Assembly: GCA_949472775.1 (NCBI GenBank)
Contig: CASWVG010000006.1
Coordinates: forward strand, 1-64,000
From: an uncultured Lachnospiraceae bacterium
GTDB lineage: Bacteria; Bacillota; Clostridia; Lachnospirales; Lachnospiraceae
Length of the DNA stretch: 64,000 bases
Direction: 5' to 3'
Below are positions 2,488 to 27,590 of this stretch, one piece after another (within the stretch, counting starts at the first letter, position 1; each line of letters begins with the position of its first letter). Under the pieces are notes generated by a model, which worked only from the letters and a program-made list of their open reading frames with translations, was not told where the DNA came from and ran no database searches. The translations under genes were made by a program, and so were the position numbers.

Positions 2488-2856
2488 CTATTTCTTGTTC
2501 TTCTTTACCGGCTCACCCGTAAACAGGTCGATATACTCTACTAAAGACATCTGGTCATATTCTAGATCTTCTTTCAGCTGATTCTGGATATACGTTTTGA
2601 TCGCAGCTGTGTTCTTCCCCACAGTATCCACATAATACCCTCTACACCAGAAATGACAGTTCCCATACTTATATTTCAGATTCGCATGCTTCTCAAATAT
2701 CATCAGGGAACTCTTCCCTTTCAGGTATCCTACAATTTCTGATACCGGGTATTTGGGCGGTATCCTTACCAGCATGTGGATGTGATCCGGGCAGCATTCT
2801 GCTTCTATGATCTCTATTCCTTTTCCGCGGCATAGCGCTCCCAGTATCTGCCCTCC
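2488..2856 (-). pseudogene. tnpA: IS200-type TnpA transposase, 5'-truncated
   Basis: The readable frame begins near GQILGALCRGKGIEIIEAE and continues through the HUH motif DHIHM, then YLKGKSSLMIF, FWCRGYYVDTVG and the catalytic-tyrosine helix (TYIQNQ) to a stop at 2488. Full-length IS200 transposases have about 40-50 more N-terminal residues, including the first strand. Here the frame meets a stop at 2875-2877 instead. Both catalytic signatures of this single-strand Y1 transposase family are present but the protein should not fold. No tnpB is seen beside it. The truncation point is a perfect GC-rich hairpin next to the rpsI terminator. Confidence 0.8.
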
Positions 2857-10791: not shown

Positions 10792-10936
10792 CCAAGCACC
10801 CTCCTTTTGAGAATACACATACAATTAAACAGCCTCAAGAACTATGAACTTCTGCCCGTTTACAGAAAATGTCTGCCAGGACATTCTCCCGCATATACGC
10901 CGGGAATTATGAAATAATTCTCGTAGGCAAAACCTA

Positions 10937-10975
10937 GAAATACCTGGATTGCGCGCTTTGCAATCCTGGCATTTC
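10937..10975 (-). other. Hairpin in the rpsD-rpoA spacer
   Basis: GAAATACCTGGATTGC pairs with GCAATCCTGGCATTTC with two mismatches, starting 12 bases after the rpsD stop. There is no U-tract. It resembles the other superoperon hairpins in place and shape but lacks the shared core sequence. The rest of the 195-base spacer (10792-10986) has no gene. Confidence 0.7.
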
Positions 10976-10986
10976 TTTTCACCTTA

Positions 10987-11580
10987 TTATTTGGAATACA
11001 ACTCGACGATAAGCATCTCGTTTACCGGAACGTCAATCATCTCTCTGGTGGGAAGATATTTCACAGTTGCCTTCATTGCCTCCTGATCTACCTCAAGCCA
11101 CTCGGGAACAAGTCTGCCGCCAGTCACCTCAAGAATATCTTTATATCTCTGAAGAGATCTCGCCTTCTCTCTCACCTCGATCACATCACCGGCTTTCACC
11201 AGGTAGGAAGGAATCTGCACAGGCTTACCGTTCACCAGGAAATGCTTGTGACCTACTACCTGTCTCGCTTCTCTCCTTGTTCTGGCAAAGCCCATCCGGA
11301 ACACAACACTGTCCAGTCTGCTCTCAAGCATAACCATCAGGTTTTCACCGGTCTGCCCCTTCATTCTGTCGGCTTTCTCATAATAATTTCTAAAAGGCTT
11401 CTCCAGCACGCCGTAGATAAATTTCGCTTTCTGTTTCTCACGCAGCTGAAGACCATACTCACTGATCTTCTTGCCTGCTCTTGCGGATGTTCTGTTAGAT
11501 TTCTTGTCATATCCTAAAAAGGTAGGATCAAGATCAAGGGATCTGCATCTCTTTAATACCGGAACTCTGTTTACTGCCAT
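10987..11580 (-). CDS. rpsD: 30S ribosomal protein S4
   Basis: S4 is a primary 16S rRNA binder. The ATG at 11580 gives [17 protein letters not shown], 197 residues, preceded by AAGGAG; an earlier ATG at 11652 adds 24 residues unlike the family. The S4 RNA-binding domain is clear in [33 protein letters not shown]. The C-terminus [13 protein letters not shown] is typical. In B. subtilis rpsD is elsewhere and autoregulated; here it lies in the alpha operon between rpsK and rpoA, the common Clostridia order. Confidence 0.98.
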
Positions 11581-11663
11581 GATTCTGGCTCCTTTCTGTT
11601 TTTGTTTACAGTGCGCCCTCTCAGGCAGCACCTTCTTCCAAATAGTTAACACTTTCTCAGAGC

Positions 11664-11936
11664 AGAGAACCGCTTGCGGTTCTTCAGCTCAAACTTAGAA
11701 AATCTTCGCGAAACAACCTATGCTGTGAGCGATTAGATTTTCTAAATCGAAACATAGAAATTCTTGGCGGCGTCTTCTGACACCTTAGAATTTCTTTCGG
11801 AGAACCGCTTTCGGTTCTCCAGATCAAAACTCAGAAAATCTTCGCGAAACAGCCTATGCTGTGAGCGATTAGATTTTCTAAATCGAAACATAGAAATTCT
11901 TGGCGGCGTCTTTTGACGCCTTAGAATTTCTTTTCG
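11664..11936. repeat. Two ~136-bp tandem hairpin units in the rpsK-rpsD spacer
   Basis: The 361-base spacer is mostly two near-identical units, 11664-11799 and 11800-11936. Each carries three inverted repeats in order: AGAACCG/CGGTTCT; a nested stem AGAAAATCT...AGATTTTCT with CGC/GCG and CAGC/GCTG inside; and AGAAATTCT-tt-GGCGGCGTC paired with GACGCC-tt-AGAATTTCT. In the unit nearest rpsK an outer clamp AAATCGAAA/TTTCGATTT closes the last hairpin, 5 bases after the rpsK stop. No U-tract follows on the minus strand. Confidence 0.9.
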
Positions 11937-11941
11937 ATTTG

Positions 11942-12337
11942 TTATACGCGCCGTCTCTTCGGCGGACGACATCCATTATGAGGTACAGGCGTCACGTCGC
12001 GGATGCTGGTCACTTCCAGACCGCATGCCTGCAGCGCACGGATCGCAGCCTCACGTCCCGAACCGGGACCTTTTACCATAACGTCAACAGTCTTTAAGCC
12101 GTGGATCAGAGCAGCCTTTGTCGCTGTCTCAGCAGCCATCTGTGCCGCATAGGGAGTAGATTTCCTTGAACCTCTAAAACCAAGACCACCAGCACTCGCC
12201 CAGCTTAACGCATTACCCTCGTTATCTGTCAGCGTAACGATGGTATTGTTAAAGGAGGACTGGATATGTGCCTGTCCATGTTCAACGTTTTTCTTGACAC
12301 GCTTTTTTGTCACTTTTTTGGTAACTTTCTTTGCCAT
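11942..12337 (-). CDS. rpsK: 30S ribosomal protein S11
   Basis: The protein has 131 residues with a Lys-rich N-terminus, then [36 protein letters not shown] and the C-terminal [20 protein letters not shown]11 forms part of the 30S platform facing mRNA in the E site. It follows rpsM by 48 bases. Its stop is followed within 5 bases by the tandem hairpin repeat that separates it from rpsD. Confidence 0.98.
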
Positions 12338-12385
12338 AATAAACTAACCTACTTTCTCAGACTATTTAATCTTGTTCCTATGTTG

Positions 12386-12754
12386 TTACTTCTTCTTGTT
12401 TGCAACAGTTCTCTTAGGACCTTTTCTTGTCCTGGCGTTGGTCTTAGTCTTCTGACCACGAACCGGAAGACCTTTCCTGTGACGGATTCCTCTGTAGCAT
12501 CCAATCTCCTGAAGTCTCTTGATGTTGAGAGCAACCTCTCTTCTCAAGTCACCTTCCACCATGTAATCTCTCTCAATTACTTCGGCAAGTCTCTTCACCT
12601 CGTCGTCAGTCAGCTCCCTGACACGAGTATCAGGATTTACGTTTGCCGCCTCCAGAATCTTGTTAGCGCTCGGTCTGCCAATCCCATAAATATAGGTCAA
12701 GCCGATCTCCACACGCTTTTCTCTCGGTAAGTCAACACCTGCAATACGAGCCAT
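12386..12754 (-). CDS. rpsM: 30S ribosomal protein S13
   Basis: The protein has 122 residues. [26 protein letters not shown] and the C-terminal [19 protein letters not shown] are family signatures. S13 contacts 16S helix 42, the 50S subunit and P-site tRNA. The 154-base gap to rpmJ upstream contains an inverted repeat GGCAAA-ATGC-TTTGCC near 12832 and a GATC...GATC stem near 12854, but no gene. Confidence 0.98.
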
Positions 12755-12908
12755 TTACATTTCCTCCATTTCCTTTGCATTTTCATGCGTTTCGCGCACC
12801 CACGGCACGCGTGACACTAATTGATTGAGGCAAAATGCTTTGCCCAACCGGATCAGATATCCGATCTTTCCAAACATAGTTGGTATCAAAAAGTGGGCTC
12901 TCTATCTA

Positions 12909-13022
12909 TCAACCCTGTACCTGTTTATGTTTCGGATTTTCACAAATAACTCTGATCTTTCCTTTTCTCTTGATGATTTTGCACTTTTCGCAAATTGGTT
13001 TTACTGATGATCTTACCTTCAT
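12909..13022 (-). CDS. rpmJ: 50S ribosomal protein L36
   Basis: This 37-residue protein begins [21 protein letters not shown] and ends [11 protein letters not shown]. The zinc set Cys-X2-Cys...Cys-X4-His marks the C+ zinc-binding form. The start at 13022 follows GGAGGG at 13030-13035. It lies between infA and rpsM, its normal place. Confidence 0.96.
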
Positions 13023-13140
13023 CTCAAACCCTCCTTTCAAAAAAGACCGTTTTATATTATAGCACCAAATCCTGGCATTGACAAGACTTTTTCTATAATT
13101 TGTATATTGTCCTGCATTTTTGAACGCCGGCTTACCGGTT

Positions 13141-13359
13141 TTACTTATCTCTCCAGATGATTCTTCCCTTAGACAGATCGTACGGAGAAAGTTCCAACGT
13201 TACCTTGTCACCGGGCAGGATGCGGATGAAATTCTGACGCAGCTTACCGCTGATATGCGCCAGCACCACATGACCGTTTTCCAGTTCCACCTGAAACATG
13301 GTATTGGGTAACTTTTCAATTACAGTTCCTTCAATCTCAATTACATCAGCCTTTGACAT
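13141..13359 (-). CDS. infA: Translation initiation factor IF-1
   Basis: The protein has 72 residues, the standard IF-1 length, with an S1/OB fold: [30 protein letters not shown], then [28 protein letters not shown] and RIIWR. It binds the 30S A site during initiation. Its start overlaps the end of the upstream KOW gene by 14 bases, so the two are probably translated in coupled fashion. Confidence 0.98.
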
Positions 13360-13621
13360 TTCTTTCCTCTCTTTCTCTCACATATTCTTTGATTGTTCTT
13401 TTTATTTCCAAATCACTGAAACCGTTCTCCGGTTCCAGCATTCTTTTCCTTTTAATAACCTGTACGTGTTTCTTATTTTTCCGCTTCGGGCGTTCCACGG
13501 TTCTGCTTGTGCCGTCAGCTACATATATATATTCGCCGTCCTCCCGTATGATGACATACACGGAGTCTTTATCATGCCCCGCCTTTGAACTGGCGAGCAT
13601 TCCCACGATATTTTCTTCCAT
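13346..13621 (-). CDS. KOW-domain RNA-binding protein (L14e-like)
   Basis: The 91-residue protein begins [27 protein letters not shown], a KOW-type SH3 barrel, and continues into a Lys/Arg-rich middle ([17 protein letters not shown]). The family is widespread in Clostridia at this exact place between map and infA and resembles archaeal/eukaryotic L14e. Its role is unproven; ribosome or rRNA binding is inference. ATG at 13621 is preferred over TTG at 13627. A predicted promoter lies directly upstream. Confidence 0.88.
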
Positions 13622-13643
13622 ACGCAAATCCCGTTTCTTCTAT

Positions 13644-13671
13644 ATAATATGATAAGTCAGCCAGAAAACAA
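13644..13671 (-). promoter_or_regulatory. Predicted internal promoter before KOW-infA-rpmJ
   Basis: TTGTTT (13666-13671) and TATTAT (13644-13649) are spaced by 16 bases on the minus strand. It would add transcription for the downstream alpha-operon genes. A 9-bp inverted repeat, TGATAAGTC/GACTTATCA (about 13650-13658 and 13699-13707), overlaps the -35 side. The rest of the 196-base map-KOW spacer has small hairpins (GCGCGT/ACGCG, GATGC/GCATC) and no gene. Confidence 0.55.
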
Positions 13672-13817
13672 GCGCGACATAGTGAATAGTGAACATTTAT
13701 TTTCACCCGACTTATCAGTGAATGAATCATAAAGCGCGTAAACGCGACAGATGCGAAGCATCCGGATTCCTGCGTCTTGTCAGCGGCAAAGCATGCACAC
13801 GCGGCTGGATTCTTAAG

Positions 13818-14573
13818 TCATAGCAGCGTCAATATTTCCGGCTCCCCGTCCGTAATCAGCACAGTGTTCTCATAGTGCGCTGAAAGAGAGCTGTCTGCCG
13901 ATACCACCGTCCATCCGTCATCAAGCCAGTCTACCTCACCTGTACCGATATTGATCATCGGCTCAATTGCCAGTGTCATACCGGCTTTCAACCGTATCCC
14001 CCGTCTTCTCTGGGGAAAATTCGGTATATTCGGCGGTTCATGGAGTTTCGTCCCGATGCCGTGTCCCACAAGGTCGTGTACAATGCCATAGCCGTAAGGT
14101 ATCACATAATCTGCTATGGCATTGGAAATATCGTGTAGATGTTTCCCTGCACGAGCCATCATGATTCCCTGAAAAAAGCTCTCCCTCGTCACCTCGATCA
14201 GCTTCTCCGCTTCCTGGCTGATCTGCCCGACGCCATAGGTTCTGGCTGCATCCGAATGATAACCCTGATAAATCAGTCCCGTATCCAGACTTACGATATC
14301 GCCCTCCCGCAGGATCCGGTCTTTGCGGGGAATCCCGTGTACGACCTCCTCATTCACAGAGACGCAGACACTTGCGGGATATCCTTCATAGTTCAGGAAA
14401 TTAGGCGTGCAGCCATATCCCCGGATCAGTTCCTCGCATACCGTGTCAATCTCCTTCGTGGAAACACCGGGGCGTATTGCTTTTGCAAGTTCCTCGTGCA
14501 CGCGGGCAAGCAGTCTGCCCGCCCGCCGCATCTTTTCGATTTCTTCCGCCGATTTGATCGTGACCGCCGCCAT
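13818..14573 (-). CDS. map: Methionine aminopeptidase, type I
   Basis: Map removes the initiator methionine from nascent proteins with a dinuclear metal centre. The ATG at 14573 (MAAVTIKSAEEIEKMRRAG, 251 residues) follows AGAGGG; a start at 14651 adds 26 unlike residues. Metal ligands are visible as Asp in SLDTG, Asp in YHSDAART, His in GHGIG, Glu in AIEPM and Glu in YENTV; the substrate His is in VVHGIP. There is no N-terminal zinc-finger extension. It lies in the spc operon after adk. Confidence 0.97.
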   Translation of the reverse strand: MAAVTIKSAEEIEKMRRAGRLLARVHEELAKAIRPGVSTKEIDTVCEELIRGYGCTPNFLNYEGYPASVCVSVNEEVVHGIPRKDRILREGDIVSLDTGLIYQGYHSDAARTYGVGQISQEAEKLIEVTRESFFQGIMMARAGKHLHDISNAIADYVIPYGYGIVHDLVGHGIGTKLHEPPNIPNFPQRRRGIRLKAGMTLAIEPMINIGTGEVDWLDDGWTVVSADSSLSAHYENTVLITDGEPEILTLL

Positions 14574-14670
14574 ATCTATCCCTCTAATCTTCACATCAAC
14601 CGAGGCTGCAAAGCAGTCCTCGCACTCGAACTTATTCGATTTGTCAGACAAATTCGTTGTGGCTGAACTG

Positions 14671-15312
14671 TTATCCTAAGATTTCCACAATCGCCTTAAA
14701 TACATCCTGCATATCCTGCGTGCCATCTACACTTCTCAGCACGCCCTTTGTCTTATAAAACTCAAGTAACGGTGCTGTCTGCTCCTGATACACCCTCAGA
14801 CGTTTCTCCACCGTCTCCGGCTTGTCGTCGTCGCGCAGCACAAGCGCTTCTCCACACTCGTCACAGATTCCCTCTTTCTTCGGAGGAACATGCTCGATAT
14901 GGTAGGTTGCGCCACATGATGTGCACGCACGTCTGCCTCCCATTCTGCGGATGATATTCTCATCCGGCACCTCCACGTCAATTGCGTAATCGATTTTGTC
15001 GCTCAGCTTATCAAGCGCATCCTCAAGTACCTGCGCCTGCGGAATCGTTCTCGGAAATCCGTCCAGTACATATCCGTTCTTACAGTCATCCTGCGCCACC
15101 CTGTCAAGGAAAATGCGAACCGTCAGTTCGTCGGGCACCAGCAGACCCTGATCCATATATGTCTTCGCTTCCATACCGAGTTCTGTCCCGTTCTTGATAT
15201 TCAGACGGAACATGTCTCCCGTCGAAATATGCGGAATCTTGTAATTCTCGGCAATCATTTTCGCCTGCGTCCCTTTTCCGGCGCCGGGTGCGCCCAGCAT
15301 TATAATTTTCAT
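14671..15312 (-). CDS. adk: Adenylate kinase, zinc-LID form
   Basis: Adk interconverts AMP, ATP and ADP. ATG at 15312 gives MKIIMLGAPGAGKGTQ, 213 residues, with GAGGGAAAA upstream. The P-loop is GAPGAGKGT, the AMP-binding part HISTGDMFR and DGFPRTIPQA. The long LID carries Cys-X2-Cys (CTSCG) and Cys-X2-Cys (CDECG), the structural zinc site of Gram-positive adenylate kinases. It follows secY in the spc operon. Confidence 0.98.
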   Translation of the reverse strand: MKIIMLGAPGAGKGTQAKMIAENYKIPHISTGDMFRLNIKNGTELGMEAKTYMDQGLLVPDELTVRIFLDRVAQDDCKNGYVLDGFPRTIPQAQVLEDALDKLSDKIDYAIDVEVPDENIIRRMGGRRACTSCGATYHIEHVPPKKEGICDECGEALVLRDDDKPETVEKRLRVYQEQTAPLLEFYKTKGVLRSVDGTQDMQDVFKAIVEILG

Positions 15313-15395
15313 TTTGTTTTCCCTCTCCCCAAACATACAGACACAAGGTTAGGGACGTGCCGAAAATCCGCCGTCCCTACCTGTTTTTTCCCACA

Positions 15396-16709
15396 TTAGT
15401 CGTTTAAAAAGCCCTTATAATTGCGGACAAGCATCTGCGACTCAATCTGCTTAACCGTCTCCAACACCACGCTGACAATAATGATCAGGCTGGTCCCACC
15501 AAAAGATACGCTTGCGCCAAACACACCGTTAAAGAAGTAAGGCACCACACATACAATGGTCAGACCGATCGCTCCGATAAACACAATATAGTTCAACAGC
15601 TTTGCCAGATAGTCACTGGTAGGCTTACCAGGTCTGATACCCGGGATAAATCCGCCCTGCCTCTTCATGTTATCCGCAATCTCCATCGGATTGAAGGTGA
15701 TGGATGTATAGAAGTAGGCAAAGAATACCACCAGCACAATGTACACCACCAGACCAATCGAATAGACAAGGTGCTCTGGATTACACCAGTAGTTGGAGTT
15801 CAGTCCCTTAAGGATTTCTCCCCAGATGCCGGTGCCATTCACGTTAAACAGTGAGCAGATCACTACCGGAAGCTGCATCAGGGAAGATGCGAAAATGACG
15901 GGGATTACGCCGGAAGTATTGACCTTCAGCGGAATATTCGTCGTCTGTCCGCCAACCATCTTTCTGCCCTGTACCTTTTTCGCATACTGTACCGGAATCT
16001 TGCGCACACCATCGTTCAGGATGATAACAAGCACTACCATCAGTACAATGATCGCAATGATAATGATCGCTGCCACCACGCCCTTGGCGATGGATCTGCC
16101 GATCACAAACTGCTCAAAGAGTTGTGCGATATCCTGCGGCATACGGGAGAGTATGTTGATCGTCAGCACGATGGAAATACCGTTGCCGACTCCATTCTCC
16201 GTAATCCGCTCTCCTATCCACATCAGAAACGCGCTGCCTGCCGTAAGCGCCGCAATAACCGTAATAATGTTGATCACATTGTAGGTTTCAAGCAGGCCCT
16301 GCCGTCCGAAACCGATCGCCATGACACCGGCCTCAATCAGCGCAAGCGCAACTGTCACATATCTCGTAATAGATGCAATCTTTTTACGTCCATCCGCACC
16401 ATCTCTCTGCATCTCCTCCAGCTTAGGAATCGCTATCGTCATAAGCTGCATGATAATCGAAGATGTGATGTACGGCGTAATGTTAAGCGCCAGCACGGAC
16501 ATATTCAAGAAAGATCCACCCGTAAAAGCATCAAAGAAATTGAATGCGTCACCAGTCTGGCTCTCGAACCACCTCGCAAAATAGGTTCTGTCCACACCCG
16601 GCACGGGGAGCTGTGATCCGAGACGGATCACAACCAGCATGAGAAATGTAAAGAAAATTTTATTTCTGATCTCCTTGATCTTAAATGCATTTTTTAGGGT
16701 TGTAAACAT
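15396..16709 (-). CDS. secY: Protein translocase subunit SecY
   Basis: SecY is the channel for Sec-dependent secretion and membrane insertion. It has 437 residues with ten predicted membrane segments, the first near 16-36. Landmarks include GVDRTYFARWF, ITPYITSSIIMQLMTIAIPKLEEMQRDGADGRKK and the cytoplasmic loop FNPMEIADNMKRQGGFIPGIRPG. Its ATG overlaps the rplO stop by one base (TAATG), implying translational coupling. It is followed by adk, the standard spc order. Confidence 0.98.
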   Translation of the reverse strand: MFTTLKNAFKIKEIRNKIFFTFLMLVVIRLGSQLPVPGVDRTYFARWFESQTGDAFNFFDAFTGGSFLNMSVLALNITPYITSSIIMQLMTIAIPKLEEMQRDGADGRKKIASITRYVTVALALIEAGVMAIGFGRQGLLETYNVINIITVIAALTAGSAFLMWIGERITENGVGNGISIVLTINILSRMPQDIAQLFEQFVIGRSIAKGVVAAIIIIAIIVLMVVLVIILNDGVRKIPVQYAKKVQGRKMVGGQTTNIPLKVNTSGVIPVIFASSLMQLPVVICSLFNVNGTGIWGEILKGLNSNYWCNPEHLVYSIGLVVYIVLVVFFAYFYTSITFNPMEIADNMKRQGGFIPGIRPGKPTSDYLAKLLNYIVFIGAIGLTIVCVVPYFFNGVFGASVSFGGTSLIIIVSVVLETVKQIESQMLVRNYKGFLND

Positions 16710-17149
16710 TAAATCACCTCTGCTGTTCCACCAAGCGCCTCGATTTTCTCCTTCGCGGATGCGCTGAAGGCATTTACCTTCACGTCGAGTTTCTTAGTAA
16801 GTTCTCCGTTTCCAAGGATCTTTACACCATCGCGGGGATTCTTTACAATTCCTCTTTCGATCAATGCATCCACATCAACCGTAGCCCCATTATCAAACAC
16901 CTCGAGAACACTCAGGTTAAGAGCAACGATCTCTTTGGTATTTCTGTTGGTAAAGCCTCTCTTGGGGAGACGTCTGTACAAAGGCATCTGGCCACCCTCA
17001 AAGCCCACTCTGGGCGCACCGGAACGAGCCTTCTGACCCTTATGGCCCTTACCGGCCGTCTTGCCATTTCCAGAGCCGTGTCCACGGCCCCTTCTAAAAT
17101 TATTGCTGTGCACAGAGCCCTCAGCAGGTCTTAAATTCGATAATTCCAT
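16709..17149 (-). CDS. rplO: 50S ribosomal protein L15
   Basis: The protein has 146 residues. The Gly/Arg-rich N-terminal extension ([25 protein letters not shown]) and [17 protein letters not shown] are diagnostic of L15, which threads into 23S rRNA. It shares one base with the secY start and lies 14 bases after rpmD. Confidence 0.98.
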
Positions 17150-17163
17150 CTATCACACCTCCT

Positions 17164-17361
17164 TTATGCCTCTTCCACTTTGACCATATGTCTTACTCTC
17201 TGAATCTGACCTCTGGTCGCCGCATTGTCAGGCAGTTCCACTGTCTGATGAAGCTTCCGAAGTCCCATAGCCGCTACTGTAGCGCGAGCCTTGGGCACCT
17301 GGCCGATTGTAGATCTGACTAAAGTGATCTTTAATTTTTTATCTGCCTCTTTCGCTGCCAT
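17164..17361 (-). CDS. rpmD: 50S ribosomal protein L30
   Basis: ATG at 17361 gives MAAKEADKKLKITLVRSTIG, 65 residues, preceded by GGAGGG; an earlier start at 17424 is not supported. L30 signatures are LVRSTIGQVPKARATVAAMGLRKL and the C-terminal RGQIQRVRHMVKV. It lies between rpsE and rplO as in other bacteria. The upstream spacer holds two hairpins. Confidence 0.97.
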   Translation of the reverse strand: MAAKEADKKLKITLVRSTIGQVPKARATVAAMGLRKLHQTVELPDNAATRGQIQRVRHMVKVEEA

Positions 17362-17401
17362 TTTATTCCCTCCTGATCTTCGTAAAACCTCGAATCTGAT
17401 C

Positions 17402-17487
17402 AGAGAATGCCTTCTTTTGGGCATTCTCTCGTACGAAACTTAGATATTCTTTGTAAAGCACCCCTTGCTGCGTGCATTAGAATATCT
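17402..17487 (-). other. Paired hairpins in the rpsE-rpmD spacer
   Basis: AGAGAATGCC/GGGCATTCTCT (17402-17429) is followed by AGATATTCT/AGAATATCT (17442-17487) with an inner GCA/TGC and an outer near-clamp GTACGAAA/TTTCGCAC. The pair starts 5-12 bases after the rpsE stop. The order and size match the other superoperon elements, but the GGCGGCGT core is absent. Confidence 0.75.
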
Positions 17488-17498
17488 TTTCGCACTGG

Positions 17499-18008
17499 TT
17501 ACGCGCGAATATCCTCTACGGATTTTCCGCGGTTTTTAGCCACTTCCTCAGGAGTCTTTAACTGGCTTAATCCCATGATCGTAGCTAATACTACGTTCTG
17601 CTTGTTGTTGGACCCCAGGGACTTTGTACGGATATTTCTGATACCTGCAAGCTCGCACACCACACGCGCAGGACCTCCGGCGATGATACCGGTACCTTCC
17701 GGAGCCCGTTTCAGTAAAACGGACGCAGAGCCGAATTTTCCAACAAAATCATGTGTGATACTGTTTTTCTCGTCCAGTGCAACGCAGACCAGATTCTTGA
17801 TCGCGTCTTCTTTGCCTTTGCGGATCGCTTCAGGGATTTCAGTCGCTTTACCGAGGCCTGCACCGACATGGCCGTTACTGTCGCCGACTACCACAAGCGC
17901 TGTGAAACGCATGTTACGACCACCCTTGACAACCTTGGTTACACGCTTGATTGTCACAACTTTCTCAGTGAGTTCTAACTGACTTACGTCAATGATTGTA
18001 CGTCTCAT
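17499..18008 (-). CDS. rpsE: 30S ribosomal protein S5
   Basis: The protein has 169 residues with the double-stranded RNA-binding S5 domain ([34 protein letters not shown]) and the C-terminal domain beginning [14 protein letters not shown]5 affects decoding accuracy and is where spectinomycin resistance changes occur in other species, in the VKGG-type loop (VVKGGRN here). It follows rplR by 20 bases. Confidence 0.98.
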
Positions 18009-18028
18009 GTGATCTTCTTTCTCCCTTC

Positions 18029-18397
18029 CTAGAATTCCAGGCCAGCTTCTCTGGCCGCGTCCGCTAATGCTGCTATCTTACCCTGATATATAAAACCGCC
18101 CCTGTCAAAGACTACGGCTTTGATACCTTTCTCAAGCGCTCTCTTAGCGATCACTGTTCCTACATATGCTGCCGCCTCAACGTCATTGGTCTTCTTAAGT
18201 TCGCTTCCCACACTCTTCTCAAGAGTGGACGCAGCGACTAAAGTATTTCCCACCGTATCGTCAATAATTTGAGCATACATATGATTATTGCTTCTGAACA
18301 CAGCCAGACGCGGCCTCTCAGCGGTGCCGCTGAAACGGTTACGCATTCTGTTATGTTTCTTTACGCGAACTTTTTGTCTCGATTCCTTCTTAACCAT
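18029..18397 (-). CDS. rplR: 50S ribosomal protein L18
   Basis: L18 helps bind 5S rRNA. The ATG at 18397 ([24 protein letters not shown], 122 residues) has AGGAG 9 bases upstream; the ATG two codons earlier is too close to it. [40 protein letters not shown] and the C-terminal [11 protein letters not shown] are family hallmarks. Confidence 0.97.
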
Positions 18398-18417
18398 TTC
18401 CATACTCTCCTTATCTT

Positions 18418-18960
18418 TTATTTCTTACCGGTCTTACCAACTTTACGTCTGATCGTTTCATCAGCATACTTGATACCCTTGCCCTTATAAGGCTCAGGAC
18501 GTCTCTTGTCTCTGATTTCAGCCGCAAACTGACCTACTTTTTCTTTATCGATGCCCTTGACGATGATCAGATTCTGACCCTCTACAACTGTCTCAATACC
18601 CTCAGGGTCTGTCATCTCTACGGGGTGGGAGTATCCTAAGTTGAGTGTAAGCTTCTTGCCGGATTTAGCAGCTCTGTAACCAACGCCGTTTACCTCCAGC
18701 TTCTTCTCAAAACCGTCCGTCACACCGACTACCATGTTGTGAATCAGTGTTCTTGTCAAACCGTGGAAGGATTTCATCTTCTTTAAGTCGTTCGGCCTGG
18801 AAACCAGGATCTGATCGCCCTCCACCTTAATCTCCATCTCTGCGGGAAGCGTTCTCTCAAGCGTTCCCTTGGGACCTTTCACAGTCACTTTATTATTTTC
18901 TGCAACCTCCACAGTCACACCCGCGGGGATCGCGATTGGCATTCTTCCTATACGTGACAT
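18418..18960 (-). CDS. rplF: 50S ribosomal protein L6
   Basis: The protein has 180 residues with two repeats of the L6 fold. [15 protein letters not shown] opens it and the [26 protein letters not shown] block near the C-terminus binds 23S rRNA near the sarcin-ricin loop. The spacer of 340 bases upstream (to rpsH) is filled by an 84-bp tandem hairpin array. Confidence 0.98.
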
Positions 18961-19031
18961 GCCCGTACCTCCTGTTTTATTTGTTATATAAATGTTTTAC
19001 GTCGGACTCGAAAATCCATCTGCTGGTTTAA

Positions 19032-19297
19032 AAATTCTTCTCACCAACCAAGGTCGCGAAGCAAACTCGCAAGTGAGATATCGTATTTCTTAGGTGGCGT
19101 TTTATGGCGCCTTAGAAATTCTTCTCACCAACCGAGGTCACGAAGCAAACTCGCAAGTGAGATATCGTATTTCTTAGGCGGTGTTTTTTTGCACCTTAGA
19201 AATTCTTCTCACCAACCGAGGTTGCGAAGCAAACTCGCAAGTGAGATATCGTATTTCTTAGGCGGCGTTTTATGACGCCTTAGAAATTCTTCTCACT
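19032..19297. repeat. 84-bp tandem hairpin array, three units, rpsH-rplF spacer
   Basis: Units start at 19032, 19116 and 19200, and a fourth partial at 19284, an exact 84-base period. Each unit has an arm TCTCACC, an inner stem GCGA/TCGC (partly changed in unit 2), an arm AAGTGAGA, and the core TATTTCTTAGGCGGCGT paired with ACGCCTTAGAAAT. The arm GTGAGA can pair with TCTCAC on either side, so mutually exclusive structures are possible. The last arm, TCTCACTT, ends 3 bases from the rpsH stop. Nothing in it codes for protein. The 71 bases 18961-19031 show no feature beyond the rplF ribosome binding site. Confidence 0.93.
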
Positions 19298-19300
19298 TTG

Positions 19301-19702
19301 TTACCAGACAAATGCTAACACTTCGCCACCTACCTGAAGCTCTCTTGCCTTCTTGTCGGTCACAACCCCCTGGTTCGTGGAGATGATCGCCACACCTAAG
19401 CCACCGAGCACTCTGGGCAGATCTTCCTTACCCGCATACACACGAAGACCGGGCTTGGAAATTCTCTTAATACCGGAAATGATCTTATCGTTCTTGTCCT
19501 CTCCATATTTTAAGGTGATATGGATGGTCTTGAAGCTGCCGTTCTCGATCACGTCAAATTTTCTGATATACCCTTCCTCTAAGAGAATCTGCGCGATAGC
19601 CAGCTTCATCTTGGATGAGGGCACATCTACTGTATCATGCTTTGCAGTATTTGCGTTACGGATTCTTGTAAGCATATCTGCAATCGGATCGCTCATTGTC
19701 AT
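19301..19702 (-). CDS. rpsH: 30S ribosomal protein S8
   Basis: The protein has 133 residues and starts [17 protein letters not shown] with GGAGGA 7 bases upstream. The C-terminal half [33 protein letters not shown] is typical. S8 is the spc-operon translational repressor in E. coli. It is striking that tandem hairpin arrays flank this gene on both sides, but the hairpins do not obviously mimic the S8 site on 16S rRNA. Confidence 0.98.
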
Positions 19703-19733
19703 GATTTTTCCTCCTATATATTTATACTTGACA

Positions 19734-19946
19734 TTTCTTTATCGGCGTTCTTTGCTGACTCAGAAATTCTTTTCGCCACCCGAGTTTGCTTTGCAAACCC
19801 GCAAGCCAAACATAGTATTTCTTAGTCGGCGTCCTCTGCCGGCTTAGAAATTCTTTTTGCCACCCGAGTTTGCTTTGCAAACTCGCAAGCCAAACATAGT
19901 ATTTCTTAGGCGGCGTTTTCCAGTCGCCTTAGAAATTCTTTTGGCT
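19734..19946. repeat. 84-85-bp tandem hairpin array, rpsN-rpsH spacer
   Basis: Two full units start at 19764 and 19848 and a third partial at 19933; a degenerate core precedes the first (19734-19763). Each unit has a perfect or near-perfect stem GAGTTTGC-TTT-GCAAACTC, then AAGCCAAA, then TTTCTTAGGCGGCGT or a variant pairing with GCC-TTAGAAAT. The outer clamp AAGCCAAA/TTTGGCTT closes the last hairpin a few bases after the rpsN stop. It is clearly homologous to the array on the other side of rpsH but with different clamp and loop sequences. Confidence 0.92.
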
Positions 19947-19949
19947 TTG

Positions 19950-20135
19950 TTACCAGCTGGCTTTCTTAACGCCGGGAATCTGTCCCTTATATGCTAATTC
20001 ACGGAAACATATTCTGCAGATTCCGTATTTTCTCAGATAAGCATGTGGACGACCACAGATTTTGCAGCGGTTATACGCTCTGGTTGAGAATTTCGGTTTG
20101 CGCTGCTGTTTGATCTTCATTGCTGTCTTAGCCAT
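19950..20135 (-). CDS. rpsN: 30S ribosomal protein S14, zinc form (type Z)
   Basis: The protein has 61 residues, the short form. The zinc set is CKIC then CRIC in [28 protein letters not shown]. Two Lys-rich residues stretches flank it and it ends VKKASW. It lies 14 bases after rplE, where the zinc form is the main S14 of Gram-positive bacteria. Confidence 0.98.
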
Positions 20136-20149
20136 GAATTTACCTCCTT

Positions 20150-20692
20150 CTATTTGGCGAATGGCATATTAAATAATCTCAACAACTCGCGGGCTTCTTC
20201 ATCTGTCCTGGCTGTGGTGACGAAGATAATGTCCATACCTCTCACCTTGTCAACCTTATCGTACTCGATCTCCGGGAAGATGATCTGCTCCTTGATACCG
20301 AGTGCGTAGTTGCCTCTGCCGTCAAAGGAATTGGCGCTCACGCCTCTGAAGTCACGCACACGGGGAAGAGCCAGATTTACAAGTCTGTCTAAAAACTCAT
20401 ACATCTTGTCACCGCGAAGCGTAGTCTTACAGCCGATTGACTGTCCCTCTCTGATCTTGAAGTTAGCGATGGAATGCTTCGCCTTCGTGATGATGGCCTT
20501 CTGACCGGTAATGGTCTCCATATCACCCACAGCCGACTCTAAAACCTTCGCGTTCTCCTTCGCTTCACCGACGCCCATGTTAATCACGATCTTGTCAAGC
20601 TTCGGAACTTCCATGACATTTTTATATCCAAACTTTTTGACCATAGCATCTACGATCTCGTTTTTATACATATCTTTAAGTCTGCTACTCAC
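20150..20692 (-). CDS. rplE: 50S ribosomal protein L5
   Basis: L5 binds 5S rRNA in the central protuberance. I choose GTG at 20692 ([23 protein letters not shown], 180 residues), with GGAG 10 bases upstream; the in-frame ATG at 20746 falls before the ribosome binding site and adds 18 unlike residues. [43 protein letters not shown] and [13 protein letters not shown] are canonical. Confidence 0.97.
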
Positions 20693-20798
20693 GCTTATGG
20701 ATCTCCTTTCAAAAATATTTTCTCTTCTTAAATCAAGACTGCGCATTTACTGCACTGTCCGTACACGCGCCATACAGCTTGCTGCATGTGTGCATCTC

Positions 20799-20819
20799 AA
20801 ACGCCTATGCAAGGCGTTT
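20799..20819 (-). other. Hairpin overlapping the rplX stop codon
   Basis: AAACGCCT and AGGCGTTT pair perfectly around a 5-base loop. The second arm covers part of the rplX stop codon (20818-20820). It lies in the 125-base rplX-rplE spacer, which has no gene and no U-tract behind the stem. Confidence 0.65.
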
Positions 20820-21129
20820 AATCAATGATATCGCCTGTGGACTTGGCGAAACGTACTTTCTTACCCTTCTCGATCTTAAAACCGATTCTGGTAGCCTTGC
20901 CCTTGTGCACATACATCACGTTGGAAGCGTCGATGGGAGCTTCCTTCTGAACGATACCACCGTTCTGGTTAGCCATGGACGGCTTTTCATGCTTGGTAAT
21001 CTTGTTGATACCTTCCACGAGAACCTTGTTCTTCTTTCTGTCTACAGAAATTACCTTGCCTTCTTTGTCTTTATCCTTGCCGGCGATCACTTTAACGGTA
21101 TCACCTTTTTTAATCTTTGCCATTGACAT
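20818..21129 (-). CDS. rplX: 50S ribosomal protein L24
   Basis: The protein has 103 residues with the KOW motif KKGDTVKVIAGKDKDKEGKVISVD and HEKPSMANQNGGIVQKEAPIDASNVM. L24 starts 50S assembly. GGAGG is 7 bases before the ATG at 21129. The gene lies 11 bases after rplN. Confidence 0.98.
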   Translation of the reverse strand: MSMAKIKKGDTVKVIAGKDKDKEGKVISVDRKKNKVLVEGINKITKHEKPSMANQNGGIVQKEAPIDASNVMYVHKGKATRIGFKIEKGKKVRFAKSTGDIID

Positions 21130-21140
21130 ACCAGCACCTC

Positions 21141-21509
21141 CTATAATACTTCCGGAGCCAGTGAAACAATTTTCATAAACTGTTTATCACGAAGCTCTCT
21201 TGCTACTGGTCCAAAAATACGGGTTCCTCTGGGAGTCTTATCATCTTTGATGATAACAGCAGCATTTTCGTCAAATCTGATGTAAGATCCATCCTTACGT
21301 CTTGCGCCCTTCACGGTACGCACAACGACAGCCTTCACGACATCGCCTTTTTTTACAACGCCGCCTGGTGTTGCATCTTTGACCGTAGCGACAATCGTAT
21401 CACCTATGCGCGCATATCTTCTTGTAGATCCACCCATAACTCTGATGCACAGGAGTTCTTTTGCACCGGTGTTATCAGCAACCTTCAATCTGCTTTCCTG
21501 TTGAATCAT
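21141..21509 (-). CDS. rplN: 50S ribosomal protein L14
   Basis: The protein has 122 residues. [37 protein letters not shown] and [28 protein letters not shown] are family-typical. L14 forms an intersubunit bridge and is the RsfS silencing site in other bacteria. Upstream, a 168-base spacer to rpsQ holds one core-type hairpin and, nearer the gene, a TGACCA...TGGTCA inverted repeat. Confidence 0.98.
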
Positions 21510-21616
21510 GCTATCTTCTCCTTATCTTAATCTTTTAACTCTTCAATCTGACCAACTGGTTTCATTATAGATCTGTCTGGTCAATCTGATCCGAGTCTGC
21601 GAAACAAATCCCGCGG

Positions 21617-21673
21617 CTGAAGCTGTATTTTTTCTTAGGCGGCGTTCTCTGACACCTTAGAAAATCTCTTCAG
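21617..21673 (-). other. Core-type hairpin in the rpsQ-rplN spacer
   Basis: Clamp CTGAAG/CTTCAG encloses the core ATTTTTTCTTAGGCGGCGT facing ACACCTTAGAAAAT. It starts 4 bases after the rpsQ stop. It is a single copy of the element that is tandem in three other spacers. Confidence 0.8.
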
Positions 21674-21677
21674 TCTG

Positions 21678-21932
21678 TTATTTCACCTTCTCAACGATCT
21701 CCACAAGTCTCCATCTCTTGTCCTTGGACAGAGGTCTGGTCTCCATTACCTTTACGGTATCGCCGATGCTGCACTCGTTGTTCTCGTCGTGCGCCTTTAA
21801 CTTGTAAGTCTTCTTCACGATCTTTTTGTAAAGCGGGTGCTTTACGTGATCTTCTATCGCTACCACAATGGTCTTATCCATCTTATTGCTCGTAACCTTG
21901 CCGGTACGGGTTTTTCTCAGATTTCTCTCCAC
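21678..21932 (-). CDS. rpsQ: 30S ribosomal protein S17
   Basis: The protein has 84 residues: [35 protein letters not shown], then [41 protein letters not shown]17 is an OB-fold primary 16S binder. It lies between rpmC and rplN; the upstream spacer carries a triple 20-bp hairpin repeat. Confidence 0.98.
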
Positions 21933-21951
21933 GATTGATATCTCCTTTCCT

Positions 21952-22037
21952 CTGATTTCGCTATCGCGAAACTGATTTCACTTCCGTGAAACTGATTTCA
22001 CTTCAGCGAAATCTGCAAGAACCGCTTCGCAGTTCTT
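21952..22037. repeat. Three 20-bp hairpin repeats plus one hairpin, rpmC-rpsQ spacer
   Basis: Three contiguous units of 20 bases (21952-21971, 21972-21991, 21992-22011) have the form CTGATTTC-NC-loop-G-N-GAAA. Unit 1 stem is TTTCGC/GCGAAA and unit 2 is TTTCAC/GTGAAA, so a base pair has changed on both sides while the stem is kept; unit 3 has one mismatch. A further hairpin, AAGAACCGC/GCAGTTCTT, follows at 22017-22037, next to the rpmC end. Confidence 0.85.
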
Positions 22038-22051
22038 ACGCTCTCGCCATA

Positions 22052-22258
22052 TTATACAGTCTTTGCTTTCTGCGTGATCACTGTCTGGATTCTGGCAATA
22101 TTTCTTCTCACTTCTTTGATCCGCGCCGTATTGTCCAACTGGTTTGTTGCGTTCTGGAATCTCAAATTGAAAAGCTCTTTCTTAGCGTCTACCAGCTCCT
22201 GTGCTAATTCAGCATCTGATTTTTTATTTAAATCTTCCACATATTTATTAGTTTTCAT
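22052..22258 (-). CDS. rpmC: 50S ribosomal protein L29
   Basis: The 68-residue helical hairpin protein contains [20 protein letters not shown] and [16 protein letters not shown]29 lies at the tunnel exit near L23. Its start overlaps the rplP end by 11 bases. Confidence 0.97.
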
Positions 22259-22685
22259 TCGCTACACCGCCTTCCAGGTCTGCTTTAGAAACGATTTTGC
22301 ACTTGCAGGGAAGTTTATGGGTTGCAAGACGCAGCGCTTCTTTTGCCACATCTTCAGCCACTCCGGCGATCTCAAACATCACGCGGCCGGGCTTAACCAC
22401 TGCTACCCAGTACTCCAAAGTTCCCTTACCGGAACCCATACGTGTCTCTGCCGGTTTTGCAGTAACGGGCTTATCCGGGAAAATCTTGATCCACACCTTA
22501 CCGCCACGCTTAATGTGTCTTGTCATAGCGATACGGGCTGCCTCTATCTGATTGGACTTGATCCAACAGGGCTCCATAGCAATAATACCATACTCACCGT
22601 AGGTAATGGTGTTGCCGCGGGTCGCTTTACCCGCCATAGAACCACGGAACTGTTTACGACGTTTTACTCTTTTTGGCATTAACAT
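22248..22685 (-). CDS. rplP: 50S ribosomal protein L16
   Basis: The protein has 145 residues. [15 protein letters not shown] matches the family start, with GGGAG 9 bases upstream; the ATG overlaps the rpsC stop by one base. [36 protein letters not shown] and RMGSGKG are signatures. L16 organises the A-site tRNA elbow region. Confidence 0.98.
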
Positions 22686-23341
22686 TATTTATCGCTCCCT
22701 TCCTTGTTAGATTTAGTCGGAAGTACCTCGCCTTTGTAAATCCATACCTTTACGCCAAGCTTGCCGTAAGTGGTATCTGCCTCAGCGAAGCCATAGTCAA
22801 TATCTGCTCTCAGTGTCTGCAGCGGAATGGTTCCCTCACTGTAGAACTCGGTGCGGGCAATGTCTGCGCCGCCAAGACGACCGGAAACGGCAGCCTTGAT
22901 ACCTTCTGCACCTGCTTTCATGGTACGGCCCATGCAGGACTTCATCGCACGTCTGAAAGATACACGGTTCTCAAGCTGCTGTGCGATGTTCTCCGCAACA
23001 AGCTGCGCATCCTTGTCAGGTCTCTTGATCTCCTTGATGTCCACAAGAACCTTCTTGCCTGTCATCTTGGAAAGTTCTTTCTTGGTTACCTCGATCTCTG
23101 CGCCGCCCTTACCGATCACAACGCCGGGTTTTGCGGTGTAGATGATAACCTTTACTCTGTCAGACGCTCTCTCGATCTCAATCTTAGAGATGCCTGCGCT
23201 GTATAACTTCTTCTTTAAATACTCTCTGATATTGTAATCTTCTACTAAAAAGTCAGCAAACTCTCCGTCAGCATACCATTTGGAATCCCAATCTTTAATG
23301 ATACCGACTCTCAATCCGTGCGGATTAACTTTCTGTCCCAT
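22685..23341 (-). CDS. rpsC: 30S ribosomal protein S3
   Basis: The protein has 218 residues. [25 protein letters not shown] opens it, the KH domain carries [20 protein letters not shown], and the C-terminal domain carries [49 protein letters not shown]3 sits at the mRNA entry channel. It lies between rplV and rplP and is coupled to the latter. Confidence 0.98.
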
Positions 23342-23365
23342 GTTGTTCTCCTTCCTAATCTGATC

Positions 23366-23770
23366 CTATCTTGCATCGAGAACGATCGTGATATGACTCA
23401 TTCTCTTCTCAATCCTGTAAGCTCTGCCCTGTGCTCTGGGCTGAATCCGCTTCATGGTAGGTCCTTTATTTGCATAGCACTCTGCTATATAAAGATTTTC
23501 CGGCTTCGGATACTTTGTAGGGTCCTGACTGTATTTGTACTCGGCGTTTGCAATAGCCGACTCCAGCAGCTTCTTGATGATGCTGGATGCATATCTGGGA
23601 TTATATGCAAGGATTCCGAGTGCTGTCTCGACATCCTTCCCTCTGATCGCATCTAACACGAAACAAGCTTTCTGTACAGACACACGAGCGTAAGACAGCT
23701 TCGCTGAAGGTCTGACATCCTTGTTCGCGTTTCTCTCTCTCTTTATCTGGGATCTATGTCCTTTAGCCAT
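23366..23770 (-). CDS. rplV: 50S ribosomal protein L22
   Basis: The protein has 134 residues. Core blocks are AKLSYARVSVQKACFVLDAIRGKDVETALGIL and the long loop GPTMKRIQPRAQGRAYRIEKRMSHITIVL, which lines the exit tunnel and contacts macrolide sites in known ribosomes. It follows rpsS by 21 bases. Confidence 0.98.
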   Translation of the reverse strand: MAKGHRSQIKRERNANKDVRPSAKLSYARVSVQKACFVLDAIRGKDVETALGILAYNPRYASSIIKKLLESAIANAEYKYSQDPTKYPKPENLYIAECYANKGPTMKRIQPRAQGRAYRIEKRMSHITIVLDAR

Positions 23771-23791
23771 AGATTGAAGCCTCCTTTCAAA

Positions 23792-24073
23792 TTAGCGAAC
23801 TTTGGACTTTCTCTCGTCCTTATCATGTCCTCTATAAGTTCTGGTCGCCACGAACTCACCAAGCTTGTGTCCAACCATGTCCTCTGTAACATATACCGGC
23901 ACGTGCTTTCTTCCGTCATGCACCGCGAAGGTGTGTCCTACGAAAGAAGGGAAAATCGTAGAGCGGCGGGACCAGGTCTTGATAACCTGCTTCTGTCCCG
24001 ACGCATTCATAGCATCTACTTTTTTCAGTAAGCTCGCATCCGCAAACGGTCCTTTTTTCAATGATCTTGCCAT
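23792..24073 (-). CDS. rpsS: 30S ribosomal protein S19
   Basis: The protein has 93 residues: [73 protein letters not shown]. It forms the 30S head near the A-site finger. GGAGGAG precedes the ATG. Confidence 0.98.
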
Positions 24074-24119
24074 GATCTCTCCTCCTGAATAATTTTCATT
24101 TATCGCAATCCGGCAGTCT

Positions 24120-24211
24120 GGAAAGAATTGCCATCTTTTGCAATTCTTCCAACCAAAGCCGTAGAAATTCTCAAGCGGCGTTCTCTGCCGCCATAGAATT
24201 TCTCTTTGGTT
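24120..24211 (-). other. Hairpin pair in the rplB-rpsS spacer
   Basis: GGAAAGAATTGC/GCAATTCTTCC (24120-24150) is followed by a long stem with clamp AACCAAAG/CTTTGGTT enclosing AGAAATTCT/AGAATTTCT and GCGGCG/CCGC (24151-24211). The second starts about 3 bases after the rplB stop. It is a single copy of the superoperon element with a variant core. Confidence 0.82.
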
Positions 24212-24213
24212 TT

Positions 24214-25056
24214 CTACTTAATAGCTCTGCCGTCTCTTCTTCTCACAATCAGCTTATTAGAAGCTTTCTTTTTCTTACGGGTCTTAAGACCGAGTGCCGG
24301 TTTACCCCAGGGTGTACACGGGCCCGGGCGTCCAATCGGAGCGCGGCCCTCACCGCCGCCGTGCGGGTGGTCGTTCGGGTTCATAACAGAACCGCGTACG
24401 GTAGGACGGATGCCCATGTGGCGCTTACGTCCCGCCTTACCGATCTTAATCAGGTTGTGGTCTGTGTTGCCCACTGTGCCGATGGAAGCTCTGCATACCA
24501 TCGGTACCATTCTCATCTCGCCGGAGGGAAGTCTCAAGGTCGCATACTTGCCTTCCTTAGCCATCAGCTGTGCGCTGTTGCCTGCGGAGCGGACCATCTG
24601 GCCACCCTTGCCGGGATATAACTCGATGTTGTGTACCAGTGTACCTACCGGAATCTCAGACAGAGGCAGGCAGTTACCAACTCTGATTTCTGCCTCGGGA
24701 CCGTTCATAACCTTCATGCCGTCCTTTAATCCCTCCGGTGCAAGGATGTATGCCTTCTCACCGTCCTCATAGCAGATCAGCGCGATGTTAGCCGTTCTGT
24801 TGGGATCATACTCGATACCGATTACCTTTGCGCTGATGCCGTCCTTATTTCTCTTGAAATCAATGTTTCTGTATAATCTTCTGTTTCCGCCGCCGTGGTG
24901 TCTCACCGTGATCTTACCCTGATTGTTACGGCCCGCGTTCTTCTTAAGGGAAGTGCAAAGCGCCTTCTCGGGCGTCTTCTTCGTGATCTCGCTGAAATCA
25001 GAGCCGGTCATGTTACGTCTCGACGGTGTATATGGGTTATATGTCTTGATTGCCAT
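24214..25056 (-). CDS. rplB: 50S ribosomal protein L2
   Basis: The protein has 280 residues. [21 protein letters not shown] opens it; [22 protein letters not shown] and [21 protein letters not shown] (with the His near the peptidyl transferase centre) are signatures. L2 is needed for subunit association. It lies between rplW and rpsS. Confidence 0.98.
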
Positions 25057-25198
25057 GATCTCTTATCTCCTTTTCTAAATTTATCTCACAACCCGGAAAA
25101 GATTCTTGAAATTCTCTTAACCGGGCCTGCTAAGAACCGCTCGCTGTTTTGAATTCCATGCTGCCGGGACTCTCTTGCCGCTTCGAATCCCATATTGC

Positions 25199-25283
25199 AG
25201 AGAATCGCTTGCGATTCTCTCAACCGAAACTATAGATTTTCTTAGGCGGCGTCCTCAGACGCCTTAGAAAATCTTTTCGGTTT
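25199..25283 (-). other. Hairpin pair in the rplW-rplB spacer
   Basis: AGAGAATCG-CTTG-CGATTCTCT is followed by clamp AACCGAAA/TTTCGGTT enclosing AGATTTTCT-ta-GGCGGCGTC facing GACGCC-tt-AGAAAATCT. The second stem starts about 3 bases after the rplW stop. A further CCCGG...CCGGG stem lies at about 25094-25122 nearer rplB. The 228-base spacer holds no gene. Confidence 0.85.
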
Positions 25284-27353: not shown

Positions 27354-27590
27354 AAAAAAAGTCGCCTCCTTTTCGCACTTTTAAAGCTTAAGTACGACAA
27401 GCGGTGACTGTACACTCTCCCGTGTGTGTCCTAAATGATTTCATATCGAACTACTACACGTCGTTTCCGGCTGACCGGACATTTTGTCTGTACAGTGACT
27501 TGTCGTCAGTTTCCTAACTTGACATTCGCTCCACGGAAAACCTGCCACGCGGGCAGCAACCTCACGCTTCATAGCTATCATGCCACAGCA
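27354..27590 (-). promoter_or_regulatory. S10 superoperon leader with long-range stem
   Basis: The gene-free leader runs about 235 bases from the predicted start to rpsJ. GACAAGCGGTGACTGTACA (27396-27414) and TGTACAGTGACTTGTC (27489-27504) pair over about 16 positions with a 3-base bulge and one mismatch, enclosing about 75 bases. Such a structure could serve in autoregulation or in antitermination loading. No T-run follows it. No known leader family is recognised. Confidence 0.6.

Follow-up and report, generated by a model that had tools for sequence, protein, structure and literature searches.

Small interspersed palindromic repeats are a known kind of bacterial DNA element. In Escherichia coli, repetitive extragenic palindromes (REPs) lying at most 15 nt from a stop codon are reported to make ribosomes stall and to reduce translation; the figure given for such positions is 446 of 4,072, and 260 of 496 in an earlier study quoted there (PMC12306157). 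A REP has been described as a GTAG- or CGTC-tagged palindrome of 20-40 bp (PMC3733652). Here we describe a hairpin repeat in a 64,000-nt stretch of an uncultured Lachnospiraceae bacterium (contig CASWVG010000006.1 of assembly GCA_949472775.1; hereafter the window), which contains the S10-spc-alpha ribosomal protein superoperon with its genes on the minus strand. The repeat consists of a long hairpin (HP1) and, usually, a short one (HP2), and it combines position and orientation bias, structural covariation, no terminator features, patchy occupancy and near-identical cassettes at different sites. We give about an even chance to the reading that it is a fast-turnover interspersed repeat of Lachnospiraceae, resembling REP or ERIC (enterobacterial repetitive intergenic consensus), with an RNA structure that caps cistrons where translation ends, its exact role being something we infer. 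The original prediction, made from the window alone, knew of no description of such a family, and literature searches likewise turned up none, nor any description of such strict locking to stop codons; judged by these searches, the family and the locking are what is new.

Hairpins in the superoperon spacers

A hairpin had been predicted in the spacers after rplW, rplB, rpsQ, rpsN, rpsH, rpsE, rpsK and rpsD, and HP1 is present in all eight. Each folds 2.9 to 8.1 standard deviations better than shuffled sequences (z-scores from -2.9 at rpsQ, the weakest, to -8.1 at rpsK), none of 200 shuffles folds as well in any of the eight cases, and stem energies range from -15.5 to -28.9 kcal/mol. The clamp, the outermost part of the stem, starts 2 nt after the stop codon in six spacers, 1 nt at rpsK and 3 nt at rpsE, so that the expected distance of about 2-12 bases holds for seven spacers and is one base too long for rpsK. 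The six self-complementary clamps are as described, that of rpsQ with one mismatch, and the common core expected in six spacers is there, rplB being the most divergent; the HP1s of rpsE and rpsD follow the common layout of clamp and inner stem with different cores. Tandem copies at rpsH, rpsN and rpsK, the HP2 right after HP1 and the genome-wide spread go beyond what had been predicted. The elements are as follows.

25222..25282, minus strand: HP1 after rplW, clamp AACCGAAA/TTTCGGTT, short core
25199..25220, minus strand: HP2 after rplW, AGAGAATCGC/GCGATTCTCT type; from the fold, coordinates counted by hand
24151..24211, minus strand: HP1 after rplB, clamp AACCAAAG/CTTTGGTT
24121..24150, minus strand: HP2 after rplB; from the fold, coordinates counted by hand
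21615..21675, minus strand: HP1 after rpsQ, clamp around CTGAAG/CTTCAG, A.C mismatch at the second clamp pair
19887..19947, minus strand: HP1 after rpsN, first copy, clamp AAGCCAAA/TTTGGCTT
19733..19942, minus strand: 84-bp tandem array after rpsN, second copy at 19803-19862, third degenerate
19239..19298, minus strand: HP1 after rpsH, first copy, clamp AAGTGAGA/TCTCACTT
19028..19296, minus strand: 84-bp tandem array after rpsH, three copies, the further ones at 19155-19214 and 19071-19130
17431..17496, minus strand: HP1 after rpsE, long-core type, clamp GTGCGAAA/TTTCGTAC
11880..11940, minus strand: HP1 after rpsK, first copy, clamp AAATCGAAA/TTTCGATTT
11665..11933, minus strand: 136-bp tandem array after rpsK, second HP1 at 11744-11803, long-core hairpins at 11694-11743 and 11833-11879
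10925..10984, minus strand: HP1 after rpsD, its own core, clamp AGGTGAAA/TTTTGCCT

As a rule HP1 spans 60-66 nt and is built from a variable, self-complementary 8-bp clamp, a stem, a 3' bulge and a GC core. Inside the clamp, read on the sense strand, AGnnnTTCT pairs with AGAAnnnCT to form the inner stem, and the bulge, usually of 3 nt, lies between AGAAnnnCT and the 3' clamp strand. AG stands directly behind the 5' clamp in 59 of 62 copies from other genomes of the genus (congeners) and in 93 of 97 off-window copies of the own genome. Cores are either short (AAGGCGTC...GACGCCGCCTA type) or long (AAAGCTCnGCAGC...GCTGCTTCGCCA type). HP2, a hairpin of about 22-30 nt that usually stands immediately 3' of HP1, follows 82 of 110 own-genome copies if counted as a stem that has 7 bp or more and starts no more than 4 nt past HP1, and in 55 of those 82 the offset is 1 nt. 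In some own-genome copies (e.g., L111, L124 and L172) a variant HP1 was seen by eye, with a small side hairpin (e.g., GATTTGC-TT-GCAAATC) apparently in the 3' bulge, giving a three-way junction.

The HP1 models have 23 and 25 bp, a length that would suit a site at which RNase III or another double-strand nuclease cuts the operon transcript into cistrons, and Correia/NEMIS repeats are mentioned as proposed RNase III sites (PMC2229807). However, long and short cores differ, and by eye rpsE of L233 and rpsN of L224 and L256 seem to retain just a short hairpin, short for this enzyme. We regard a nuclease site as improbable.

Position behind stop codons across genome and family

The own genome (84.6% complete, 3.36 Mb, of which the superoperon takes up approximately 14 kb) was scanned with a covariance model, R2, trained on 25 copies of this genome, including 7 in the window. 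With the best 150 of 1,238 candidates scored, so that copies may be missing, there are at least 114 matches with E no higher than 0.1; 13 of these fall within the superoperon, toward which the training set is biased, and the HP1 of rpsD is not one of the 114, having been picked up by direct scan of the window. Matches stand behind many other genes, which contradicts the original idea of a family confined to ribosomal superoperon spacers and rules out a ribosomal-operon-specific one. The proposed covariance-model search of relatives did return the same element, with paired clamps, behind the same genes in congeners. Stricter filters leave 1 to 83 matches per genome in 36 of the 37 genomes scanned in the genus (own genome included; G013 is the exception) and none in 24 genomes from other families of the order; the maximum of 83 is in G033, and G009 and G018 have a single match each, both in the superoperon. 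Across the family, with the best 20 candidates scored per genome, 19 of 250 genomes matched, 17 of them among the 248 of other genera. Among named loci centred on S8, 15 of 80 have a match at E up to 0.01, and the culturable relative Parablautia muri has matches in L029; the nearest named match to the window is Lachnospiraceae bacterium B79_4_CH_BP, with S8 99% identical. Exact-pattern scans were misleading, returning zero copies or window copies only.

To relate copies to genes, one uniform rule was applied to sense, antisense and random positions alike: an open reading frame (ORF) of 80 codons or more had to end between -7 and +5 nt relative to the start of the element. The rule covers 91 of the 101 off-window matches, 10 near contig or locus ends being left out. 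Sense anchoring is found for 55 of the 91 copies, compared with 9 of 91 in antisense and 62 of 3,640 random positions. The stop lies inside the element in all nine antisense cases; it is wholly outside the element in 26 sense versus 0 antisense cases. A looser ORF rule puts 59 of 95 off-window copies at a stop (TAA 27, TAG 19, TGA 13), and because all three stop codons occur, the anchoring is not to one DNA word. Distances from stop to element cluster at -1 and 2, both of which, by eye, place the boundary dinucleotide YA in frame, as TA+R (the stop itself) or as CA or TA after the stop. In one copy (L100:1475-1534, minus strand) the 5' arm is, by eye, apparently the in-frame end of the upstream ORF, with the stop inside the 3' arm.

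The superoperons of 40 congeners give a similar picture: of 79 occupied sites, 71 have the element at -1 to 4 nt and 8 have it farther from the stop. None of 89 rows is antisense, after 16 of 105 had been dropped (13 antisense shadows of sense matches and 3 weak sense matches). The next gene is on the same strand for 59 of the 66 intergenic copies with a sense upstream gene and a called downstream gene. Since the repeat is sense-oriented right after stops and mostly between same-strand genes, it is the first transcribed element behind a coding region. Scatter over many non-ribosomal sites had been named beforehand as a sign of a mobile repeat: such sites are indeed many, but they are tied to stop codons in sense and are not random. 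The genes upstream of the 59 stop-anchored copies are varied; 30 were tested, and 26 of these belong to a Pfam family, including transport parts, kinases, PNPase, RelA/SpoT, S7, GAPDH and others. Three 60-nt short-core off-window copies stand behind rpsG, gap and, by eye, an ORF resembling aldo/keto reductase; a link between the short-core form and highly expressed genes is at most hinted at, and we do not adopt it.

A stable hairpin behind a stop codon could be an intrinsic terminator or attenuator between operon genes. A U-tract, however, follows HP1 in 0 of 110 copies and HP2 in 3 of 82, and the copies are mostly between same-strand genes, those of the superoperon in an operon that needs read-through. 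Ordinary terminators, already doubted in the original prediction, are therefore rejected, and this class of explanation is barely credible. A hairpin so close to the stop could also slow the last codons and lower output of the upstream protein, in the manner of REPs. The position falls well inside the 15 nt given for REPs in E. coli (PMC12306157), and the stem energies are substantial enough to be in keeping with this; yet damping is hard to see as useful behind ribosomal protein genes, rpsG and gap, and the outer stem is A/T-rich, so we consider it quite unlikely.

Paired changes and turnover

In the 89 congener rows without shadows, 88.2% of cells are paired compared to 72.4% in shuffles, and 20 of 25 pairs changed on both sides compared to 14.6 (296 such cells versus 95). 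Within the clamp, the 89 distinct rows have 92.7% of cells paired, and all 8 pairs carry changes on both sides. With the 13 shadows included, the alignment is 89.3% paired, with a score of 0.313 versus 0.111, and sliding the 3' partners lowers the paired share to 37-49%; the own-genome set is 90.1% paired versus 75.4%. The congener figures lean toward the structure because the alignment was fitted to the model. At orthologous sites the window and L008 have paired differences, such as AAA/TTT to AAG/CTT at rplW and G-C to A-T in the first rpsQ pair, which look like single compensating mutations at a site; part of the covariation may instead stem from exchange of whole cassettes. Paired clamp changes in the own genome and in congeners thus support the proposed selection on RNA structure, and a lack of compensatory changes, which would have spoken against it, was not seen. 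We also considered that clamps within one genome are kept different against cross-pairing, which is not supported: if anything they are more alike (2.46 mismatches of 5 within a genome versus 2.72; permutation P of being at least as different 0.98).

Presence was compared across the window and 40 congeners, a total of 41 superoperons of which some run off a contig end, by requiring a spacer of at least 70 nt and a clamp of at least 6 bp. After 7 of 76 copies had been removed by hand as unconvincing, 69 accepted HP1 copies in 32 genomes were used, all 0-3 nt past the stop. Depending on the site, between 2 of 32 and 17 of 41 genomes have a copy. Short, empty spacers are common at sites where other genomes carry approximately 90 nt or more extra; the rplB site, for example, is empty in L221 and L222 and the rpsD site (22 nt) in L008. 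In filled compared with empty sites the extra sequence begins directly behind the stop. Absence from close relatives, another point raised beforehand against the family, therefore holds in part, the sites being patchy, but the element is present in many relatives. On a tree of 12 operon genes the minimum numbers of presence changes are 6 for rplW, 5 for rplB, 8 for rpsQ, 11 each for rpsN and rpsH, 3 for rpsE and 2 each for rpsK and rpsD; the sum of 48 does not distinguish gains from losses and is approximate because some degenerate or N-containing copies (rplB of L231, L246 and L256) score as absent. At rplW, L230 and L231, which are close on the tree, differ in HP1 but share HP2 and, nearly unchanged, the downstream flank (the L231 record contains Ns), and L228 and L229 have no HP1. 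Among HP1 pairs from different sites, 100 of 1,997 are at least 85% identical, e.g., rpsH of L241 and rpsN of L226 at 96.7%, clamp included. The difference between L230 and L231, together with such near-identical HP1s at different sites and in different species, indicates that HP1 behaves as an exchangeable cassette.

The main rival explanation is a selfish or convertible DNA repeat, similar to a REP or a miniature inverted-repeat transposable element (MITE), whose hairpin serves its own copying, happens to insert at stops and is not needed by the host. Copy numbers from 0 to 83 within one genus, the 48 presence changes, the differences at rplW among the close species L228-L231, the near-identical pairs at different sites and the fact that copies away from stops score no worse all fit it. 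The strong sense bias, the 13 of 114 matches in the superoperon (given the bias of the training set) and the paired clamp changes at orthologous sites speak against it, as does the Y1 transposase, the only enzyme family searched for, to which no link was found. We think such a repeat possible but rather unlikely. The sole match to Y1 transposase in the own genome is as follows.

2578-2850, minus strand: Y1 transposase (PF01797), profile positions 30-121, in a 128-codon open frame

The 30 Y1_Tnp loci scanned, of approximately 3 kb each, contain no copy of the hairpin repeat, nor does the 3-kb locus of the window match, and 36 of 60 genomes of the genus, which are incomplete, have no PF01797 match, among them G033 with its 83 elements. 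We therefore do not class the repeat as a REP family with a REP-associated tyrosine transposase. The outer 5 nt vary between copies (11 distinct among 14 rpsH copies), so the fixed terminal inverted repeats of a MITE are absent as well.

No Rfam family reaches its gathering score at the elements; relaxing E to 1 or 10 adds sub-threshold matches only, mostly to miRNA models, one of them at rpsK (E 0.023, 30.5 bits versus a cut-off of 64). Elsewhere in the window two leaders were found, the second in a narrower Rfam scan, the whole-window scan having missed it.

27500-27580, minus strand: S10-Clostridia leader upstream of rpsJ, Rfam scan, 96.3 bits
12820-12870, minus strand: S4-Clostridia ribosomal protein leader between rpmJ and rpsM, 38.2 bits (gathering 37.5)

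The window also holds a different, hairpin-forming 20-bp tandem repeat in three copies between rpsQ and rpmC (21952-22011), approximately 100 extra nt with small hairpins in the rplX-rplE spacer (20700-20821), which measures 9-21 nt in L008 and 20 other relatives, and short tandem repeats with periods 13 and 21 at 1928-1984 and 32783-32845.

A possible cap at the end of translation and its relatives

Because the copies are in sense, behind all three stops and mainly between same-strand genes, we place their action in the mRNA at translation termination. Each cistron would end in a cap made of the HP1 and HP2 stems. When a ribosome has a stop codon in its A site, its mRNA entry channel takes up the 9-10 nt that follow. 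This stretch corresponds approximately to the 5' clamp strand, so a terminating ribosome would have to open the clamp and would then meet the inner stem. Once the ribosome is released the clamp would close again, and the closed double hairpin would protect the cistron upstream of it against 3'-to-5' decay and keep that cistron apart from the following one. In the open form a nuclease might reach the bulge and the 3' strand of the clamp, making clamp opening a possible gate. Going further, the clamp might be a termination sensor, its 8 nt matching the stretch hidden by the ribosome, so that opening reports full translation and the hairpin state sets decay or processing gene by gene in many operons, including S10-spc-alpha; to this extension we lend little credence.

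Several observations weigh against a cap. Away from any called stop are 36 of 95 off-window copies under the looser rule and 36 of 91 under the uniform one, and the scores of unanchored copies are no worse (median 43.7 versus 46.2 bits, p 0.21; looser rule), so that decay of such copies is not seen. In 28 of the 59 anchored copies (distance -1 or -6) the stop is partly or wholly within the element, which may itself supply part of the anchoring. Sites are often empty in relatives, making the element dispensable at any one site. The G-U to A-C ratio of 29 to 11 in congener clamps, which speaks for the reading, is overstated because the rows are related, and the excess is not general: 10 to 12 in the inner stem, 9 to 43 in the core (where short-form cores are misaligned) and, for own-genome clamps, 7 to 5, or 21 to 14 in another count (p 0.16).

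Locking to stops in one orientation, kept through rapid sequence turnover and dense in a highly conserved operon, makes a general question testable, namely whether termination, the release of ribosomes or the stability of a cistron depends on structure right behind the stop. Close species in which a site is filled or empty offer ready natural experiments. The family is also a warning that hairpins in ribosomal operon spacers need not be ribosomal regulators.

The likenesses to known repeats are judged by description. The REP and BIME (bacterial interspersed mosaic element) repeats of E. coli are likewise dispersed palindromes at gene 3' ends (PMC12306157). Compared with the REP as defined at the outset (PMC3733652), HP1 has approximately 60-66 nt and variable ends. 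The present repeat differs from E. coli REPs in length and ends, in that no REP transposase was found alongside, and in its single orientation and how near the stop it stays (within -7 to +5 nt for 55 of 91 off-window copies, -1 to 4 nt for 71 of 79 superoperon sites). Efa-1 of Enterococcus faecalis is reportedly the same as EFAR, which, in work by Venditti from 2007, is said to insert into existing hairpins. Efa-1 shares the adjacent stem-loop pair (PMC2267715) and Efa-1/EFAR the location near gene 3' ends (PMC1590033), and Yersinia YPAL targets sites at or beside dyad symmetry (PMC2229807); these elements are longer, at 163 and about 168 bp. Yersinia ERIC is similar in being cotranscribed, in that orientation matters and in the conformational change proposed to be induced by the ribosome; it differs in its 127 bp and in reportedly destabilising upstream mRNA via RNase E, and the passages on ERIC do not mention stop locking (PMC2229807). 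BOX of Streptococcus pneumoniae is also modular, with internal tandem modules, and is credited with supplying the stop of the upstream gene in 36 cases (PMC3049150). Whereas BOX follows the plan boxA-boxBn-boxC, in the present repeat the outermost pairs vary, the inner stem is conserved and the copies stand sense-oriented behind stops.

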